Below, in pieces: positions 19,858 to 36,196 of a DNA stretch of 64,000 bases. The notes beneath the pieces were generated by a model. It did not search any database, was not told where the DNA came from, and saw only the letters and a program-made list of their open reading frames with translations. A program made the translations under genes and the position numbers. Source of the stretch: Sabellastarte sp. h YS-2021. Lineage: Eukaryota; Annelida; Polychaeta; Sabellida; Sabellidae. The stretch is from contig OZ024929.1 of NCBI GenBank assembly GCA_964017235.1, forward strand, positions 164,161,609 through 164,225,608. The letters are read 5' to 3'. How positions within the stretch are numbered: the first letter of the stretch is position 1; each line of letters begins with the position of its first letter.

Positions 19858-20595
19858 GTGAATTATCTCTTCTCATTTGACTTATTGCATGTGATTGAAA
19901 ACAGAGGATTCTTGGCTGTTATCTCTGGACTGCAAATGCTTAACACCTTCTACACTGCCAAGTTACAGAGGTTTATGGATCCATTTTTATTGGAAAATCC
20001 ATTCACTTCTATAATGTGTGGTCCAACGGGATCCGGTAAATCTACCTTTGTTTTGAAGCTGTTGAATAATATCATGCGATGTTTTCACAAAATATTAAGA
20101 AAATTTATTATTTTTATAACAACTGGCAGAAAAAGTTTGAGGAAGAGATCACTAATGATATAGAATACAGGCAATGTCTGCCCTACAGAACAGGATTTTA
20201 AGTCTTACCCTAATGAAGACCAGTGCGTAGTAGTGATAGATGATATGCAGGTTTCAGCACTAAACAACATATTTATTGCAAATCTTTTTAATTGAGAATC
20301 GCATCATAGGAACATTAGTGTAATTCTAATTTTGCAAAATTTATTTCATCAGGGAAAATATTGTCGAGATATATCTTTAAATACTCATTATTTCATTTTA
20401 TTTAAAAATCCTAGAGATATTCAACAAATTAAATTACTGGGAAGACAATTAGGTAAAAAATTATTAAATGTTTACTTAGATGCAACTGAGGATCCTTTTG
20501 GTTACCTATTGATCGATTTATCACCTGGGAAAAAAGATAGTTACATGCTGAGAAGTCGCATATTTCCTGCTGAACATACGATTATATATAAATAG
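19858..20595 (+). pseudogene. Polinton packaging ATPase (FtsK/HerA, A32-like), broken
   Basis: P-loop ATPase that pumps DNA into the capsid. Walker A GPTGSGKS is at 20020-20043. Walker B VVVIDDMQ is at about 20227-20250, followed by the block with ILILQNLFHQGK. A TAG at 20161, a frameshift, and a TGA near 20292 break the frame; the last piece is open to 20595. ATG 19975 just upstream of PFLLENPFTSI is the likelier native start; 19858 gives an unusual extension. It is the first gene of the plus-strand core block. Confidence 0.85.
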
Positions 20596-20962: not shown

Positions 20963-22236
20963 ATGAATAAGTATGTATTTATACCACATGAACAATATGA
21001 ACAAAAATCAGAAAAAATGGAAGAAAAATCCAAAAAGGGAGTGGAGCAAATGAATGGATTCAAAAATGGACCAAAAATTTTTAATCCTGCAGAAGAAATT
21101 GATACATATCTTCATAACCTTTATTATGACATTAGGAGTCCAGTAGCTTACAGCAGTCACACTAAGTTATATCCACATATTAAAAGGGAGGGAAAATACC
21201 ACATAACCCCTAGGTATTTGAAGAAGTGGTTAAGTAAACAGGAAACTTATACAACTTTTTGCCCAGCTCGAAGCACTTTTTGAAGACCTAAAGTCTTAGT
21301 TTTTACAAGAAATTATCAATGGGACAGTGATACTGCTCACATGGTGAAATATAAGTCAGACAACAATGAATACGCTTACTTTGTAGTATTCATAGATATA
21401 TTTACTCGATACTTGTACACAGCACCATTAAAAACTTTAAGAGGTGAGGAAATGGTAATCGTATTTCAAAGAATAATTAGAGAAATAGATGAGAAACATG
21501 AAATTCTAAGAACTGATCAAGGAAGTGAATATAAGAACCGACTTTTTAATAGGTTATTAAGTGAAAATAAAATAAAATATTTGTACACATACTATGAAAC
21601 CAAAGCTAATTATGCTGAAGTTATTATAACTATTAAAAACAAAATAATGAAATATTTAAGTGAAAAAGAGACCTTAAGATGAATTGACATTCTGTCTGAC
21701 TTAACCTATGGTTACAATAATTCTATCCATAGATCAATTAAAATGAGTCCAAAAGATGCAAAATCGAAGAATCAGTATTTGCTTCGGAAATCCCAATATG
21801 ATAATCTGAACTACCCTAAAAGTTTCTTTAGCTTCAAAAAACAATATAAAAATCTGAAACTGTTGCAAACCTTAAATAACAAAAAATTTAAGTTCAATAT
21901 ATCAGACAGGGTTAAGATAAGTCATCTTAAAAGGATGTTCGATGAAGAATATACTGAGAAATTGTCTGGCGAAATGTTTACTATAATTAATCGTAAATTA
22001 AATCCAAATATTCCAATGTATGAGTTAAAAGATTACAATAATGAGGTAATTCAGGGTTACTTTTATGAACCTGAATTGCAATTAGCATACATTGATAGTG
22101 ATATTTTGTATAAATTGAAGAAATTCTTAAAAAAAGAAAGAAAAATGGTGGAGAGGTAGAGATATTAGTGAAATGGAAGGGATGGCCTACAAAGTTCAAT
22201 TCATGGATTCCAGAAAAAGAGGTGGAAAATATATAG
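20963..22236 (+). pseudogene. Polinton integrase (DDE, retrovirus-like) with C-terminal chromodomain, broken
   Basis: Inserts the element into chromosomal DNA. An N-terminal region (about 20963-21280) ends at a stop. The catalytic core follows: the first Asp in SDTAHM (about 21325), the second in RTDQGSEY (about 21515), and Glu in YAEVII (about 21615). Another stop falls at about 21680, then IHRSIKMSPKDA and the SH3-like block (VKISHLKRMF...LSGEMFTI) to 22159. In the next frame a chromodomain (VKWKGWPTKFNSWIPE, about 22165-22230) closes the gene at TAG 22234-22236. All three acidic residues remain. Chromodomain integrases target modified histones. Two stops and one frameshift mark it as inactive. 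Confidence 0.88.
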
Positions 22237-23257: not shown

Positions 23258-24725
23258 ATGGATGTAGTTCAAACCTCATTGACGTTATTTACTCCACCTC
23301 CTACTGATAACTCGATAGTTAAAGAATATTGGGTAGATTACAATCCTATTGCGGCAATATCTGAGGGAGGGTTATTGAATTTAGTGTACCAGGAACCTCT
23401 GTAGATTACATCAGTTTAGGAAAGAGTAAGTTACATATAAAATATATTATCACAGACGAGGAGGGAGATAAGATTAAAGATGAAAGAGATATCCATGGAG
23501 TTCCAACTGCTAACAATGATCAAGTAGCTCCTGTTAATTTTAGTTTGCATTCTATTTTTAGACAGATTGATTTATCTTTAAATCAGAAACTTATCTCGCC
23601 AGATGTTGGAGTTAATTATCCTTACAAAGCACTTATTGACCTACTCTTAGGATCTAGTAATGATATGATATTATCTCAGGCAGCCATGTTTTTAAGGATC
23701 AGGCAGGTCATTTAGATAAATTTGAATATATAGGGAGTAATAGCGGATATACAGAAAGGGAAAGACCTACAAAAGATGTTGATGCAGGCAACATGGAGGG
23801 ATGTTTATATCTAGATATCTGTCAAGGTGAAAATAGAGGGATTCTAAATGGAGTCTCTGTAAACTTTAAGTTGTTTCAGTCCTTAAATCAAAGTCAAAGT
23901 TGGGGTTTAACGTCCCGTTCAACAGCCAGGGTCATATTGGGACAGGTCCTCAGCATTGCCACTTGTGGGACTCGAACCCACAGAGGTGACAGCCTATGAT
24001 TAGATGCCAAACTTGCTAACCACTAGGCCACCGAGGACCTCCAGTCCTTAAATGACTTTAGATTAATGAGATTAGGCACTAAAAATTACAAGTTAATAAT
24101 CACTAGTGCTGTATGCAAAGTATGTTATATTTCTTTAAATCCCAATATGATACTTGCACATGATGAAACCTTAAAAATTGGTCCTGCAGTTTATTCTTTT
24201 TGGAGGAGTGACCTTAAGAGTTTTAGTGTGGCTAAAGGTTCCCTAAATTTCATGACAGATATTATATATCACGGTAAAGTTCCAAGTAAATTAGTAATAG
24301 GAATGGTTTCTAATGCAGGATATTCTGGAGAATATGATAAAAACCCCTTTGATTTCAAACACATGAACCTAAACTATCTCCAGGTGACTGTAGACGGTCA
24401 ACCTGTTCCTAATAGAGCATTAACCCCTAATTTTGAAAAAGGAGATTTCGTTTCATCCTACTTATCTTTATTATATAACAATTATGACAAGAAAAATGGA
24501 ATTATTATAAAATTATTGGAATACGAGAAAGGCTATACACTCTTCTTATTTGATATACAAAGTTTCCTTTCAGGATATTTTATTAGTAAACCAATTAAAG
24601 GTCATATAAGATTCACAATGAGATTCACGAAGGCTTTGCCAGAAACTATAAATATTATAGTTTATGGCAAATTTCCTGAGAATTTAAGTATAGATCACAG
24701 TAGAAATGTAACTTTGGGCTCATAA
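23258..24725 (+). pseudogene. Polinton major capsid protein (double jelly roll), SINE-interrupted
   Basis: The ATG at 23258 opens the conserved start (EYWVDYNPIAAIS). After a frameshift at about 23375 the FSVPGTSVDYISL and LHIKYIIT blocks follow, then VNFSLHSIFRQIDLSLN and YPYKALIDLLL (about 23545-23660), characteristic of the hexon-like fold that builds icosahedral capsids. A second frameshift lies at about 23690. A SINE (23889-24041) splits the frame at FQSLN. The C-terminal 219 codons (24066-24725) are open. The stop overlaps the protease start by one base (TAATG, 24723-24727), implying coupled expression on one transcript. Confidence 0.88.
23889..24041 (-). mobile_element. tRNA-derived SINE (family 2) inside the capsid gene
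   Basis: Nearly identical to the copy at 10342-10495, in the same orientation relative to the broken gene. CAGTCCTTAAAT duplicates at 23877-23888 and 24042-24053. Confidence 0.92.
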
Positions 24726-25168
24726 TGAATACAGGGGAAATTTTCGAGCTGATGAAAAGCGACAAAGGAATCAGTAAAATATTCATGGGAGTTTATTCCA
24801 TAGATCTAATACCTCAGGATCTTCCTACACCATCGATTATTGTAGTGAATCTGAACAGTTGTGAGAAGAAAGGAAGTCACTGGATAGTTCTACATTATCA
24901 AAGAAAACATGTGGAGTATTTCGATTCATTAGGAAAACAACCAAAGAAAATGAAACATAATTTATTGACAAGTAAAGGATTTACATACAAGTACAATAAA
25001 AAAAGGTTACAATCACCATATACAGACTCCTGTGGATTGTTTTGCTTCTACTACAGTTATTATAGTTGCAGCAAGATAGACTACAATATAATATTAACAA
25101 ATTTTAGCAGTAATAGGGAATGTAATGAAGAGATTGTTAAAAATCTTTACAATGAGTTCACAAAGTAA
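24725..25168 (+). CDS. Adenain-type maturation protease of the Polinton, open frame
   Basis: A 147-residue cysteine protease of the adenovirus/Ulp1-like fold that processes capsid precursors. The catalytic His is in GSHWIVLHY (about residue 57), the acidic residue in EYFDSLG (about 78), and the nucleophile Cys in DSCGLFCFYY (about 110). Length is short but complete for Polinton relatives, and the start overlaps the capsid stop (TAATG). This is the only core gene without a stop or frameshift, which could be chance given its short length. It ends ahead of the convergent polymerase gene. Confidence 0.88.
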   Translation: MNTGEIFELMKSDKGISKIFMGVYSIDLIPQDLPTPSIIVVNLNSCEKKGSHWIVLHYQRKHVEYFDSLGKQPKKMKHNLLTSKGFTYKYNKKRLQSPYTDSCGLFCFYYSYYSCSKIDYNIILTNFSSNRECNEEIVKNLYNEFTK

Positions 25169-25556: not shown

Positions 25557-26048
25557 TTACTTTATTAACATATTCCCACTAATTTTGGCTACATAATCCA
25601 TTAATATTTGTCCCATTATATTATTACCAGCTAAAGAGGATGGTTTAAGAACAGAAACTAGTCTTGAGGGCGTAGAAACCCCCCAAAAACCAATTTCTTC
25701 ACTGTTAAAAGTTGGTTGCTTATACAGAATATGTTTATTTTTATTCAACAGTAAATCCTCTTTAAATATGGGACACTGAGTAAACTTTTGAAGTACTGCG
25801 AATCTCATAATGCGTTCTCTAAGCTCTGAATCCATGTATACATCTTTATAAGGTTTCATTATTTCAGCTATTTTAAAGCAATCGTTTTCCACAGCTAATT
25901 GTTCACATAATTGATTGTTTTGGTAGTGTTTGGCTAATAAAAAGAAATAACGTTGCTCAAGTGAATAAAAAAGGTAATTCTTATAACTTAATTTTACAAA
26001 AAAAATATTAGACAGAGAGGATTGATATTTTTCAATCAACACCACATC
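25557..26048 (-). other. NADAR domain joined to the C-terminus of polymerase B
   Basis: The open frame 26180-25557 starts with polymerase C-terminal sequence (GFNYFYCKR, DGLSTRPLD) and runs without a break into about 160 residues with the NADAR (YbiA-like, DUF1768) pattern. This has SSLSNIFF at the start, YSLEQRYFFLLAKHY, a basic ER-x2-RF helix, FTQCP...LL, GFWG, and the closing GNNIMGQILM. NADAR proteins act on ADP-ribosyl-guanine and NAD-derived substrates. A role in removing ADP-ribose from the DNA of the element is inference. It is not a separate gene as far as the frame shows. Confidence 0.65.
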
Positions 26049-26689
26049 TTGTTCCCATGGACATAGAATCATATCTAAAGGTCTAGTACTTAGTCCATCG
26101 TTCTCAACAACTCTTTTACAATAGAAGTAATTAAAGCCAATTTTTTCTTGAGAATATGTGTATATTTTACTTCCTCTCAATCAAAATCCAACATTAGTTG
26201 ATGAATTAATTACCTTCTCATTTAATGTTTGCTGAAATTTATTCTTAGGGTCAACCAATTGTTTCTTGGAAATTCCTTTGCAAGATATTTTTGTTTCCCC
26301 TCAGAATCTTGAATAATGTAAGATTTCGAGCACAAATAAATCATCTGGCAGCCTTCAAATTTTTTCTTAAAAATCCCAACCCTACGGTGATCTAATGCCA
26401 AATGATGGGCACAACATCTCCTATGAAACCAAGGAGGAGAAATTTCGTCCGAACAGGAGTTAAAAATTTCATTTTGGTATCTAATCTTATATTTTTCGGA
26501 TACACATTGATCGAGATCTGATTGGTTTATGGCCATGTAAATACTATCTGTGTCTGTTATATGTATAGATAAAGGTTGAGGCAATCATAATAAAATTCCA
26601 ACATTCTTAACTTTGCATATTGTAAAATAAAAAATAAAAATCCAATTTGGATGGGAGTGTCTACAGATATACGAGTTTTGTATGTCTCT

Positions 26690-28337
26690 GTTGGGGCCCA
26701 ACTTAGGAGTCAGCCCATCTTAAGATGGGCTATAGCCCAGATTCTAAGTTGGGTAGCCTATCTTAAGATGGGCTAGAACATATCAGCCCAACTTAGGATA
26801 AGTAACTCAGGAATTATTTTAGAGCTAAAATTCAATATTAACCAGCTAGTTTAATATTAATTTATGTCACACTCCATTGGTGGTTTTAATCATGAAAATG
26901 AAATTTACCGTGCTAGTTTATTTAAATACTTATACTTCAATTATGCAGTATATGTATGTGAAATATTATTAAACATTTGTTGTGGTTATCTTATCTCAAG
27001 ATTTGGTAACAGGTATTAGCCCAGCTTATAATTTGTACACATAATTTTTATTTTTGAAATTAAAATATTATTTACTTATTTTTCTACTGAAATGTAACTT
27101 CATTTCTTTACCTCATTATGCATTGATAGGATTAATTTTAATTCCCTCTCAGTTAATTTGACAATGGGAGGGTCATTAGGTCATAAGGTGTCAATTGTTC
27201 AACCACTGCTTTCAACTTGATTTGTTTCACTTGTGGGAAGTGATTAGGCAACTGGATTAGATTGTGATATATCTATTGTTTCAACATTTCTTTTAAGTTG
27301 ATTTGTTTGACTATGTGTGTGACTTAATAACTGGATTAGTCGCTCAAGTGTTGCAAATATTTTACGTTTTGTTGAAGCATTCTTTTGAACTTGATTTCTT
27401 TCACCTCTGGTTAAATGACTAGCTAACAGGATTAATTAGGCATAGTTGAAAGACTGTATACAAACTGATTAATTTAATCATAATTTTCAAATGTTTAATG
27501 TTAAATTCTTAAATGGATATTTAGCCATATAAGGTAATAGAAAACATCAATGTTATATGCAATGTGTATTTTATCAATTTTTATCAATTTTATGCATCAG
27601 TGTGTTTGACTAAATTCATCAAATTAACTTGTTTGAATTGCATTTTCCAATTAATTAGTGGTACTGAACTCCAAAGATAAAGTGCTTTATAAATCCTGTT
27701 TAAATACTGTCTAATAATATAAAAAAGTAATTTTATAATTCTTCTTTAAACTTAAAATATACAATCAGGCTCACCCATAAAATCACCCACTATATTGGCT
27801 TCCCCCCTCATATGTTTGATTGAATTAAGCCTCATTATATTTAGAGATTACTTGATGTTGATTTGTTTCACTTTATGACTTGGGGTATTCCCTATTGTGT
27901 ACTTCACCCACCCCAAGTGAAACAAATCAACATCAATAGAAAGTTGAAACAATAGGCACAAATCCAATAAAGAAATCTTTCGAATGAAAGACATAGACAC
28001 AGACATCAAAGGAATATTTTAATGCTTTTGAGGCTCAGGAAACACATTTCATTTTAGTTTCTGCAATTAAACACTTTTTGTTGAGGTTAGATAAGTTAAA
28101 CATATTTATATCTGTACAAGGGTCAGTTAAGTATATCAGTGTTATCTTTTTCATGAAAATAATTTCCTTGTAAATGGTTTATATTACCGTATATTCGACA
28201 TAAAAATCATTCTTTAATTTGATTATCTTAAGTTGGGCTGATATGTTCTATCCCATCTTAAGATAGGCTACCCAACTTAGGATCCTAAGTTGGGCTATAG
28301 CCCATCTTAAGATGGGCTGACTCCTAAGTTGGGCTCC
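26690..28337. mobile_element. MULE-like non-autonomous element with palindromic long inverted ends
   Basis: About 1.65 kb without coding capacity, inserted in the polymerase gene. The inverted ends are about 110 bp and are themselves built of nested palindromes (GCCCATCTTAAGATGGGC, GCCCAACTTAG and its reverse). TATGTCTCT at 26681-26689 and TACATCTCT at 28338-28346 match 7 of 9 and look like a 9-bp target duplication, as for Mutator-like elements. The polymerase frame resumes correctly on each side. The interior has about three diverged repeats around CTTGATTTGTTTCAC (27190-27440) and a hairpin of the same word at about 27850-27945. Confidence 0.75.
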
Positions 28338-30092
28338 TACATCTCTACTTCATATAAATTCTGGCCTAATTTATTCATATTTTTAAAGACAAGTGAATTG
28401 ATGAATTTACAGACCTCAGATTTATTCATTAAATATTTGACATTGGTATGCTTGGCCTTATCCATGAGCAGAGATCCGTAGGAGCTATTACTAACCAACT
28501 TATAGGTTTCCCCAATGATTGCTTTATCAGGATCTCGATCACCCTCCAATCGATATTTGGTCACTGTTTCGATAAAGGATCTAAAAGCCATTTTAGGTTG
28601 ATATACTATTATCTGATAAATTTTGGTAATTTCACAATTATTCTTTAGATAACACTGCAAAAGTGGAGTAGACAATAACATCTTTGAGGCTGAGGTTCCA
28701 TTAACTAGAAGTTTCTTGTAATCGAATTTAATGTCATTTTGATTACAATATTGTGTCATATGCTCACCTATGTCTGACATTGACACTTGACAGGTATAAA
28801 AAAGGGAGGAAATTCTGAAAAATAATCTTTAAATTCCTCTTTCACAGATATATCAACTTCAACTATGCCAAACAATTGACCATTAGCAATGTTCGATTTA
28901 ATTTTAGTTTCAGTTAATGAACCCTTATTTTTGGTGTAATATTTAGGTAAATAATGGTCATAAAAATCATTGCAGAGTGATTTTACTGCTTTGTTGAAGT
29001 CACATTGTTGAATAGATACGTATTTATAACCCATAGATATAATGAATTCTTTTTTTCTGATATCTTTGATTTGAGTCTTCTTAATGTTTTTAGCCAATGG
29101 GAAGACTTCATTTTTTTAACGATGGGACAGTCATCCCGACAGTAATGATAATAACAACCCTGAAATTCATAAACAGTTTTAGTACTTGGAGCATAGCCAT
29201 CTACTAGAAAATTTCCAATTCTAATTTCTTTGGAATTATTTAATTTATGCAAAATTTTGATCTTTTCTTTGACCATAATATAATCCATCCAAACGTATGA
29301 ATCCATATATTTCTCCGAAATTTCTGGTCTAAAATTATTATCTGGATTTCTTCTTACGTATACACCTGTAGGCATATTTTGTTTAGTAGCATATGAGTAC
29401 AAACCATTACAATCGTATCCTACTATGGACTGACATTTATTATCTTCTATTTTTTTAATGTTGGAAACCGCTTTTTCATGATAACGAGAAAATATTATAC
29501 TAGGTCCACCCACAATATTCTTTCTATAAGTATAATATTAATTGGCATTTTGTTGGTTAATCAAAGAAAAATTAGATTCTGTAGATGCATATAGTAGCTT
29601 CCTGGCTACTCCTGGTAAGGTTACATAATCTTTAAAAATATCAACTTTCTGCTGTGAGTAAATGTTAAAAAAGGATGAGAGTGCAGTAACAAAAGGGCCT
29701 GTATTGAAATAAACCAGATAATCCTTAAAGGTTTGCATTCCTTGAGTACTCCATATTTCTTTCAATTTAAGGTATTCAGCCTCAGACTTTAAAGGATTGG
29801 TATTGGACAAGGTAGAGTAAAAATCTTGCATATCGGGTAGTGAGGTGTAATTGAGTTTATCAAAAGAATCAAACCATTCATAAGAAAAATACCTTTAGGT
29901 ATATCACAACCATAAGCCTTCACAAATTGACTATAAGAACACCCAGCAGCAAGTTAATTAGAAATGTCCAAAAATTTCAACTGAGGAGTAGAAATTGCTA
30001 GGTAAGAATTTTCCTTTTTTATTGTATGAATATCTTTTTCTGGGAAATTACTGGCTACATATAACATAATATCTTCCTTAATTAAGTTTATA

Positions 30093-30458
30093 CACTGAAA
30101 ACCTCTGACAAATATTAATTTGTCATTTATTTGTCAAAATGGTGCCTAAAACGACAAACTTCCTAATTGACAAATTAAAACTTGTCATTTTCTTGTTTGA
30201 CAAATTAACTGACAAACTTATGACAAGAAAATAAGCCCGGCAGTCCAATTAATTAGTCATTTTAGGCATCTGTTATTGGTGACATTCCTGTGAAATTAAT
30301 TTTAAGGGCACTAATTTTCTTGTCATAAGTTTTCTAATAATTTGACCTATAAGTTATCAACATTTGACTATCATTCAACAAGAAAATCTCATTTGATTTT
30401 GTCATTTAAGAAACTTGTCGTTTTAGGCACCATTTTGACAAATTAATAATTTTCAGTG
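30093..30458. mobile_element. TA-flanked MITE (Tc1/mariner-type) in the polymerase gene
   Basis: A 366-bp element with inverted ends CACTGAAAA...TTTTCAGTG and a longer shared arm (AAAATGGTGCCTAAAACGAC). TA flanks both sides (30091-30092 and 30459-30460), and the polymerase frame resumes on each side. The interior repeats GACAAA/TTTGTC words. No transposase. Confidence 0.85.
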
Positions 30459-30886
30459 TATCATATTTACCCAAATTAAAACCTACAACTGGTATTTGGG
30501 ACAGATATATCTCGAATTTCTTCTGAAGATCGAGAATTTTATTTTAAAAATGAGTTTTCGCATTAGAACTAAAGTGACTTTTCATTAGTGGATACTGTGG
30601 AGGAGGTGTCTGAAAAATCTGAATCACTTTCTGGATCCATGCTGTATTTTGTCAGAAGATCATCCAGATCTTGAAATACATAGTCGTACTTGAGTTTTAG
30701 TCTACTTAAATTGGTGAAACTTATTTCAAAAAGATAGGTCATCATCTTAGAAATAAGATTATTTGAAGATATATCTACAAAACATTTAGGGTCGCAAAAA
30801 CCTTCAACATTTGAGGAAACACTAACACTTACTGGAATATGCTTGGACAAAAAATTCATTTGGTCAGTGCATGAGGCATTTGTCTT

Positions 30887-31157
30887 CATTTATACAGCCT
30901 CCATATCCCACACAATAAAAGTGGGGTAGTATCTATCACTTTCAGATATCACATATTTCGTTATTTCATAACAATTTGCATAAAGTCTTTTAAGATGCCA
31001 ATGTCTATTAAACATTTTGTTACATTTATACAGCCTCCATATCCCACACAATAAAAGTGGGGTAGTATCTATCACTTTCAAATATCACATATTTCGTTAT
31101 TTCATAACAATTTGCATAAGTCTTTTAAGATGCCAATGTCTATTAAACATTTTGTTA
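30887..31157. repeat. Tandem duplication of about 136 bp in the polymerase gene
   Basis: 30887-31022 is repeated at 31023-31157 with one substitution and a 1-bp deletion. It covers the C2H2 finger and the first exonuclease motif, so that region appears twice. High identity implies it arose after the gene decayed. Confidence 0.9.
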
Positions 31158-32408
31158 CATTTTTCACATTGAAATTTGTTGGCAAACTTGGAATAATTTG
31201 TTATTTAACTCAGATGATTTTCATAATTGTTCAAATATATTACATTTTCACTTTCAAAAAAAGAATCATACAGCAAATTTACAGAGGTAGATGATTTCAG
31301 AGACACAATAATTATTTTTACATTAAAACATTGTTCCAGCTTATTCATCTCTTCTATGGTGACACCTTTGAAATTTCCAATGGAATTACTTGAAATTTCT
31401 GAGCAATTGTTATATCTTCTCCATTGATTAGATATTGCAATACTGTATCACTTTGTTTATCTTTAAAATGATCTATCTGATCTAGTGGAAATTCTGTCTT
31501 AAAAACTACATATTGAATATTTGTAATAAATGCTAATGTCCAAGCAGTTGAAGTTCTCACAGCTCTAGCCTGTTCTATAATATCTAAGTTTGCAAGTTTA
31601 AACATAAGAAATCTAATACTGTTCCTGTTAGATATAGTAAATGGAAAATGTAAGATCTTATTATTAAAATATGGAATATAATATCTATATTCACCAGTTT
31701 CTGTATTCTGCATTATCATACCAAATGAAAAATTTTTTCTAAAGTATTTTCTTGATCGTTATATATTTGTGTCAAATGTCCTCTAATCTCGTTGAACCCT
31801 CTGTGCAGATTATTGGATGGGAAGTTGTAGACCTTCTTCAGATCTGTGTCCTCATCTCCTGCCAGAATATGTCATCTATTAAGAGCATACTCAGCCTGAA
31901 GTTCTGGATTATTCAGATCTTCCACATATGGTGGAATTTTGTATACATCATTTCCACCATGTTGAGACATACGATGAGTGTACAGTTCCTTCCTGTTTTG
32001 GCATATGTGTTTACAATGGAACATTTGTAAACTTTATTAACTGCATTCCCCTGGGTCCTATGACAGCGTTGAATATGAGAATTCGGGGCTTTGGTACTAA
32101 TAAATGGATAATCACATTGAAAGCAAATAAACTTCCCACACTTTCTGTAATGTTGAAATAATAGTTGAGATGAGTGGAATTCCTTGTCACATATGTTACA
32201 TTTCTGTAAATTATCCTTGTTCTTATGACTTCTTATGACAGTTCAACAAATATTGGTTAAGCATGCCATATTGACAATATTCACATTGAAATGTCTGTTT
32301 AGAAGTTTTTCTCTGAGATATGAACTTATTGCACAACTTGCACAAATGAATTTTCAACAAATATGCATTAAGCATATCACACTGACAGAATGGACGTTTG
32401 AATTCCAT

Positions 32409-33948: not shown

Positions 33949-36196
33949 ATGGAATCAAACATATCACCAAGGCATTATGTTTGTAGGTATTGTGAATGGG
34001 ATATGATTCCTAACTCTAATCTGGACTATCACGAAGGAATATGTCTGTTTTCTGATAAAAGAACTCAGGAAATCTGCAAAATATGTGAAAAGAAGTTCAA
34101 CACCTCAGAGGAACTCAAGTTTCATCTAAAGAAATGTGGCAAGTACCAATGTTATAAATGTTACCTGCTTTTTTGACTGCTGCGGCTTTGGATTCTCATA
34201 TTATTTCTTATCATCATAACAGTGATAATAACAACAACTCCAGGACATTTATCTGCTCCCGATGTAAGAAGAAATGTAGTAGTAGACGAGATTTATATAA
34301 CCATAGAATGAACCAACATGGGGGGAATGATGACAATGATCTGATGATATCCCAGACTATATCCAGAATGAAGAAAATGAAAATATAAAAAATATATAAC
34401 CAATAGAAATCATATAATGGATTATCATCATGAGGGTGAACTGAGGTATGTATATAACTTTTCAACTAACAATCTCAGTGATGGTTATGCAGAGATCAGA
34501 AGACATTTAAATGAAATTTTTGATGATCAAAATGTGACATATAGAATTAACTTTGCTTTTGGTATGATATTATTTAATAATCAAACAGGTGAATATAGGA
34601 TTATATTCCATATTTTAACAGTAGAATTCTGACATATCCATTCACAGTCTCTAATAGTTTACGTTTGTTGATGAACAAAATTTTGAAAGTAGATATTATA
34701 GAGCAAGCTCGAGCTGTAAGACCCTCAACAGCCTGGACACTTGCATTCATAACTAACGTGCATTATAATATATTTTTAACAGATTTTCCACTTGGAGTAG
34801 CAGTAAGTCTACCTAGTTATATCACTACTAATATCTAATCTAATCTAATGTGGACTTTTATAGCGCTTAATCTCCATCACTGATGGACTCTAAGGCGCAT
34901 CTAAACATAAAGCAAGACAGTTATCGTTAATCAAGGGACATAGCCAGGTCGTACCAAGGAGACACAGATGTGACGGGAGAGGCTATGGTGGGTAGGCTTT
35001 TGCAAACAGGTAAGTTTTAAGCTTCTTTCTGAAGGAGGCAACTGATGTTGCACTGCGAACATCTTGAGGGAGGTCATTCCAGATCTTAGGAGCATCAAAG
35101 GCAAAACTATGGCCAAAATGTTTGGCTGACTTAAAGACTGATGAATGGAAAGGAGGAACTGTAAGGTATTGACGATCTGGGTGACTATGTCTAGTACTAT
35201 AGGGACAACTACTAAAAGACAAGAACGGTTCGAAGTAAGAAGGAGAACCACTATGCAAAAATTTATACACAAGTGTTGCGGTTTTGAAAATACAACGATA
35301 CTTAACAGGCAACCAGTGGAGTTTCTGTAGAATGGGTGTAACATGAGCATACTTTCTATGATTTGTAACAATACGAGCAAGGGTGTTCTGAATACTTTGC
35401 AATTTGTGCTGATTGAAACCGGACAAACCTCTGAACAGAGAGTTACAATAGTCCAGACGACTACTAACCAAGGCATTTGCAGCAAGGACTGCCACTTCAG
35501 AAGTGAGATACTTTCTAATTCTACGGAGGTCACGCATCTGAAGGAAGCACGCTTTGCAAGTCCTCTTGATATGCTCAGAGAATGAAAAATCTGCATCAAA
35601 CCACACACCTAGATTTCTGACAGAATCAACCGGATGAAGAAGGCTACCAAGAATGCTGACAGGAAAGTGAGAGGAAATCTTCTGACGTTGAGCCTTGGAA
35701 CCAAAGACAATAAACTCAGTTTTTTCAGGGTTGAGCTTCAATTTACTGAGAGACATCCACTCTTGAACATCACGAAGGCAGGCATTTAGCTTGGCGAGAG
35801 CCGAAGAAGCATTCTTGTGGGAGAGATGGATGTATAACTGAGTGTCATCCGCATAAAAATGGAATTTAATATGCGGGTGGAGGCGAATAATTTTACTGAG
35901 TGGTGTTGTATAGAGTGAAAACAGTAACGGACCCAGATCAGAACCTTGTTACTAATAGATATTTGAAGAATGTCTTTATTAATCATAGAAAAAATCAACC
36001 ATATCAGGATAATTTAATGTTTTTCAGATGTCTCAAGTTACATTTTAACAATAATAAACAAGTTAAAGACTATTTTCGAATGTGGTTAAAATATAATAAT
36101 CGAACAATAGATGAAACCCAATTTCCAGGAATCATAGACATTGAGAAATGTTTTAATATCAAGATTTTGATATATATAATTGTTCAAGATATGTAA
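33949..36196 (+). pseudogene. Second Polinton polymerase B, N-terminal part only, split by a LINE
   Basis: The ATG at 33949 opens C2H2/CxxC fingers (YVCRYCEWD, CKICEKKF, CYKCY), with another finger in the next frame (CSRCKKKCSSRRDLYNH, about 34250-34315). Then TGEYRIIF (about 34590) and EQARAVRPSTAWTLAF (about 34700) follow, matching 31719-31500 on the other strand in order and content. After the LINE (34834-35949) it continues with ITNRYL-like, NQPYQDNLMFFRC and FPGIIDIEKCF, to 36196. It is diverged from the first copy and has one zinc finger fewer. It stops before the exonuclease domain. Confidence 0.8.
34834..35949 (-). mobile_element. L2-like LINE, 5'-truncated, ORF still open
   Basis: Inserted in the second polymerase copy with TACTAATA at 34826-34833 and 35950-35957. 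The frame from about 35944 to 34983 is uninterrupted and has FYADDTQLY (about 35830), LKLNPEKTEF, LDYCNSLF, LHWLPV and the C-terminal end. The 3' UTR ends TCTAATCTAATCTAATG at 34834. It is truncated just before the FYADD block. The same subfamily as 46422-46974. Confidence 0.92.

Follow-up and report, generated by a model that had tools for sequence, protein, structure and literature searches.

The DNA analysed here is a 64,000-nucleotide stretch of the sabellid annelid Sabellastarte sp. h YS-2021 (contig OZ024929.1, positions 164,161,609 to 164,225,608 of the forward strand; hereafter the window). It contains the remains of a Polinton-type element whose DNA polymerase B ends in a NADAR-type domain, a member of an enzyme family whose canonical representatives hydrolyse guanine-ADP-ribose (PMC11543638).

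A polymerase with a NADAR-type tail

The fusion is preserved in the window as a single open reading frame (ORF) on the minus strand, which begins in the C-terminal block of the polymerase and continues into the tail (Table 1). The Pfam family PF08719 matches this ORF with an E value of 5.3e-8 and 33.7 bits, just below the gathering cut-off of 35.1, and intact relatives score above it (38.3, 44.8, 49.5 and 36.4 bits). Profile-profile alignment of polymerase-fused against canonical NADAR domains yields a probability of 98.5 and an E value of 1.5e-15, and a predicted model of the tail displays the YbiA fold. A plain sequence search of the PDB with the window ORF as query retrieved no NADAR. The initial annotation had proposed a NADAR domain of YbiA fold joined to a Polinton polymerase in one open frame spanning 25557-26584. 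The domain and the fusion stand, whereas the continuous frame does not: a stop codon and a change of frame separate the ORF from the next polymerase piece. The polymerase copy in the window is dead and the element has decayed. Elsewhere the arrangement is intact, as unbroken polymerase-NADAR frames are found on many contigs and in the database proteins P0023, P0024, P0027 and P0032-P0036; the possibility that intact relatives carry the domain as a separate gene, which had been named as a refutation, is contradicted by these frames.

Table 1. Features of the decayed Polinton-type element, in window positions
Feature	Position	Strand	Basis
Single ORF (207 residues and stop) joining the polymerase C-terminal block to the NADAR-type tail	25557..26180	-	ORF reading
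NADAR-type domain	25596..26012	-	Pfam PF08719 match, ORF residues 57-195; fold match
Polymerase B C-terminal block, in frame with NADAR tail	26046..26180	-	Alignment with intact relatives
In-frame stop codon immediately preceding the NADAR ORF; decay of window copy	26181..26183	-	
Polymerase piece, reading frame other than that of the NADAR ORF	26222..26584	-	
Insertion bounded by terminal inverted repeats (26689-26801 / 28223-28341) that interrupts the polymerase gene	26689..28341	.	Polymerase pieces abut both sides
Rest of polymerase B (N-terminal zinc-finger part to palm), pieces in several frames	28313..32408	-	L021 mapping
Adenovirus-type / Ulp1-type cysteine protease	24725..25168	+	PF00770 and PF02902 above cut-off
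Capsid-like ORF beside the protease	24066..24725	+	No database match
Retroviral-type integrase fragment (rve)	21341..21682	+	PF00665, E 2e-10, above cut-off
ATPase P-loop fragment, weak	19858..20163	+	phrog_6891, E 0.00037

Among the traits of Polintons (Mavericks), the element has a protein-primed type DNA polymerase B, a retroviral-type integrase and an adenovirus-type protease. The intact relative L021 aligns to the window as 13 minus-strand pieces, from approximately 32408 down to 25581, and PF03175 matches positions 28337-28786 with an E value of 8.7e-5, under the family cut-off. The ORF adjoining the protease is a putative capsid gene. Judged by eye, L014, an intact copy, also has protease-like and capsid-like ORFs beside its polymerase. 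A search of positions 14000-44000 of this decayed copy for repeats of at least 40 bases found no long terminal inverted repeats flanking the element, and scans of IMG/VR viral contigs found no relatives. The window-type polymerase shares with Polinton/Maverick (adintovirus-like) polymerases the Phi29-type fold and the integrase and protease neighbours, and adintovirus polymerase B occupies ranks 2 and 8 among the viral models that it matches. Fragments of another such polymerase, which has diverged, lie at 33964-36172 on the opposite (plus) strand and show 36-66 percent identity to L021.

Distribution and ancestry of the tail

The relatives comprise 77 proteins (P0022-P0098), collected by protein searches that gave 9 and 69 with one shared, and their tails were classed by the sequence following the DGxxT block, with eight assigned by eye (P0026 and seven missed by the pattern). 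A full or cut-off NADAR tail is present in 13 and a shrunken tail of about 120-140 residues in 14. One protein, P0078, carries a DUF4326 tail instead of NADAR (residues 1489-1569, 70.6 bits), and two (P0029 and P0030) end too early to be classed. The remaining 47 stop fewer than 70 residues past the DGxxT block with nothing NADAR-like by eye, and it is from these Polinton/Maverick polymerases that the window type differs. Three of the full tails score 50.9 (P0032), 61.7 (P0033) and 32.4 bits (P0034, under the cut-off) against PF08719. The six proteins with a species-named source (Tegillarca, Amphiura, two Haliotis, Bolinopsis and Holothuria) all lack such a tail.

In trees built from the polymerase alone, the tailed rows invariably fall on one side of a single branch. 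This was observed with 73 rows, 25 of them tailed (support 85 for the NADAR rows), with 49 rows, 27 tailed (89/91), and with 52 rows, 30 tailed (90/92). The largest tree included the 68 of the 77 relatives with a pattern-found boundary and five rows from the window's own genome; the two smaller ones included 21 of the 47 tailless proteins, P0078, 12 of the 13 NADAR and 10 of the 14 shrunken proteins, together with five and eight own-genome rows, respectively. This topology is consistent with a single acquisition of the tail in the polymerase clade; because the root of the trees was not inferred, one gain is the simplest reading and no proof.

Seven of the 14 shrunken tails were profiled: they match canonical NADARs across the C-terminal 37 columns only, with a probability of 86, and score higher against polymerase-fused profiles, but those scores include the shared polymerase block. 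The shrunken tails of P0037 and P0048 give no Pfam NADAR match, even at an E value of 10. Lineage L043, from the window's own genome, sits inside the NADAR clade of the polymerase tree and seems to retain little of the domain core; it matches the polymerase-fused profile with a probability of 99.4 over 126 columns, polymerase block included, and canonical NADARs directly with a probability of 34. From these sequences, it seems that most of the NADAR core has disappeared in two lineages while its end has been kept. L043 to L048 form a second Polinton polymerase lineage in the same genome, with a shortened, apparently NADAR-derived tail that can be read in L043, L044, L045 and L048 and is broken in L046 and L047.

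Active-site residues and selection

Residues are numbered according to PnNADAR (8bau), in which E43, K50 and E125 form the reference set (PMC11543638); the numbering was transferred through an alignment of 8bau with canonical NADARs from the window's genome. The comparison covers 26 polymerase-fused rows in two alignment modes. Further members of these lineages stand outside it: P0009, P0013, P0022, P0026, some shorter fragments, and also P0016, in which YKQ is missing and the end seems disrupted. The window retains E43, as do 19 of the 26 rows. K50 is a lysine in four rows, none of which has E43, and an arginine in no row, and the pair of E43 and K50 is found in 0/26. Position 125, which is E, D or H across the NADAR subfamilies described in PMC11125620 and PMC11543638, is none of these in any row: it is tyrosine in 21, phenylalanine in one, and a gap or not reached in four. 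In the window, leucine stands at the K50 position (leucine or isoleucine in its clade) and the tyrosine of a YKQ motif at that of E125; K75 and W89 are likewise missing from this clade. By comparison, six canonical NADARs encoded in this genome, picked from the best-scoring Pfam matches, carry all of E43, K50 and E125. The tails differ from the NADAR/YbiA superfamily (PF08719; 2b3w, 8bau) both in these residues and in being fused to a polymerase. In the E. coli C7 enzyme, K95 and D171, the counterparts of K50 and E125, are required for efficient hydrolysis (PMC11543638). With this catalytic set gone, the tails examined here are unlikely to act as guanine-ADP-ribose hydrolases, a conclusion that the shrunken tails support with less certainty.

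A mere displacement of the catalytic lysine was considered and rejected: the segment from E43 to a conserved aspartate at +25 aligns free of gaps, and the lysine at +9 is not conserved, as seen from P0023, P0025 and P0026. The HMMER pairing with YbiA, which opens a three-residue gap in the helix of this segment and pairs the YbiA lysine with a histidine at +10, was set aside because a similar gap opens in canonical NADARs and mis-pairs their lysine too.

The tail is kept by purifying selection in the window's clade. Omega, the dN/dS ratio, of the tail is 0.13 for L021-L023 (dS 1.2, near saturation), 0.23 for both L025-L029 and L026-L029, 0.26 for L025-L026 and 0.22 for L025-L030, with binomial p values from 1e-13 to 2e-4; these five pairs share rows and are not independent. 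The polymerase body gives 0.11-0.19 in the same pairs, so that the tail evolves faster. Three pairs with five differences or fewer carry no selection information.

The role of the tail

The tail has probably been repurposed as an accessory domain of the polymerase without catalytic activity, a reading to which we assign a probability of roughly 0.63, because the domain is folded and selected, the catalytic set is gone, and the core has apparently disappeared in sister lineages while the end is kept. In the ancestor of one Polinton-type clade, the protein-primed type DNA polymerase B would have gained a C-terminal NADAR domain; the ADP-ribose-hydrolase active site would then have been lost and the tail retained by selection. 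Today's tail would be a folded C-terminal module following the thumb, which may stabilise the polymerase or make contact with a nucleotide ligand, DNA or a protein partner. The first acquisition may have served defence against DNA ADP-ribosylation.

A number of observations weigh against this reading. The YKQ motif stands at the place of E125 in 18/26 rows and could be a rewired active site; the window keeps E43, W133 and GNN; and the R79 position is a lysine in 17/26 rows and W133 is kept in 21/26, so that part of the NADAR pocket survives. NADARs with another residue at position 125 can be active, the phage type having histidine (PMC11125620). The residues were mapped by alignment instead of structural superposition, some of the 26 rows are near-copies of one another, and the six canonical sequences were drawn from the top of the Pfam list. 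Two close pairs give tail omega values of 0.43 (L029-L030, p 0.1) and 0.80 (L025-L028, on 4 differences), both uninformative. Finally, that the shrunken tails derive from NADAR has only moderate support, given the brevity of the clean match and the two tails without a Pfam hit.

The strongest rival holds that the pocket has been rewired, with E43 and YKQ binding or cleaving ADP-ribose, or else a nucleotide akin to it, possibly when the polymerase replicates a damaged template. It owes this rank to the retention of YKQ in the window's clade and to the gain by P0078, a relative devoid of NADAR, of DUF4326, a family proposed for ADP-ribose metabolism (PMC9503650). Within the window's clade E43, YKQ, WG and GNN are conserved except in P0016, with its disrupted-looking end, and P0025, a protein without W133 that ends early, and selection on the tail fits such a role. 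However, YKQ is missing in 8/26 rows, all outside this clade, the core helices have apparently been lost in sister tails, and the clade itself lacks K75 and W89; we consider the idea unlikely. Such a pocket might allow the replicating polymerase to bind ADP-ribosylated bases in the template or a ligand of the ADP-ribose type, or to process them, and so to serve animal virus-like elements as a polymerase-borne reader or eraser of ADP-ribose marks on DNA, a further step that is a little less likely still. The initial annotation favoured an active hydrolase that clears guanine ADP-ribose from the element's DNA and shields it from a DarT-like host defence. Such a function would suit the predicted NADAR fold, the activity of canonical NADARs, and the guanine-N2 ADP-ribosylating activity of clams (PMC11209040), but the residue counts above do not bear it out: the window and its clade lack the very equivalents of K50 and E125 on which the E. 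coli enzyme relies for efficient hydrolysis, and we deem it improbable. A six-frame search of the host genome for DarT (PF14487) gave no match, the control matching in one genome; no match was obtained there for Scabin-like proteins (PF22596) either, in a search that had no positive control and in which split exons could hide a gene. The clam activity could be the reason for the original acquisition of the tail.

That the tail is a functionless passenger, a tolerated fusion in slow decay, might be suspected because active-site residues and core have been lost step by step in a number of lineages; such a fate is hard to reconcile with a tail dN/dS far under 1 in five of six pairs and with retention over deep branches, and is very improbable. 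The interruption of the window copy between 26181 and 26300 is what could suggest that there is no fusion, merely two genes or an artefact of assembly or frame. This notion is refuted by the intact frames and can be dismissed with near certainty.

NADAR domains are already known in other mobile elements. They occur in Ectocarpus Gypsy Pol and oyster Tx1 long interspersed nuclear element (LINE) ORF1 (PMC12477816), where a mobile element's protein likewise carries NADAR; these are retrotransposons with another carrier protein, and the LINE-type copies examined in the window's genome, unlike the polymerase tails, keep the catalytic residues. RNA-virus polyproteins also unite NADAR and a viral polymerase in one polypeptide, but the latter are RNA polymerases of plus-strand RNA viruses (PMC9503650). 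The PF08719 survey of the window's genome yielded 2,705 first-look candidates, of which 150 were scored. It includes LINE-type ORF1-like proteins with a canonical NADAR at L038:4043-5416, L039:4942-6165, L040:4369-5229, L041:4281-5279 and L042:4746-6125; these NADARs retain E, K and E and score 148-149 bits in L038 and L039, the pair that was scanned, and an endonuclease or reverse-transcriptase ORF adjoins those of L038 and L041. A stand-alone canonical NADAR ORF of 169 bits is located at L037:3933-4433, with a dUTPase ORF (L037:9488-9901) about 5 kb away and ORFs without a Pfam match in between; the first 38 NADAR matches listed are ORFs of similar size (167-179 residues).

Literature searches for NADAR with Polinton polymerase, Polinton with ADP-ribosyl and adintovirus with ADP-ribos returned no description of the fusion, in keeping with what had initially been supposed, and the main text of PMC9503650, the one paper on viral NADARs among the matches listed by a broader search, has no occurrence of Polinton, Maverick, polB or polymerase B. 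Within the literature searched, the Polinton-type polymerase-NADAR fusion is new.

A NADAR match by itself does not imply activity against DNA ADP-ribosylation. Here a polymerase clade of virus-like elements bears a tail from an ADP-ribose-removing enzyme family, kept in several lineages past the loss of the active site. As canonical NADARs reside in LINE ORF1-like proteins of the same genome, active-looking and worn-out copies can be compared side by side. Ranging from NADAR-like to apparently shrunken, the tails provide a natural series in which an enzyme domain would have turned into a part of a polymerase.
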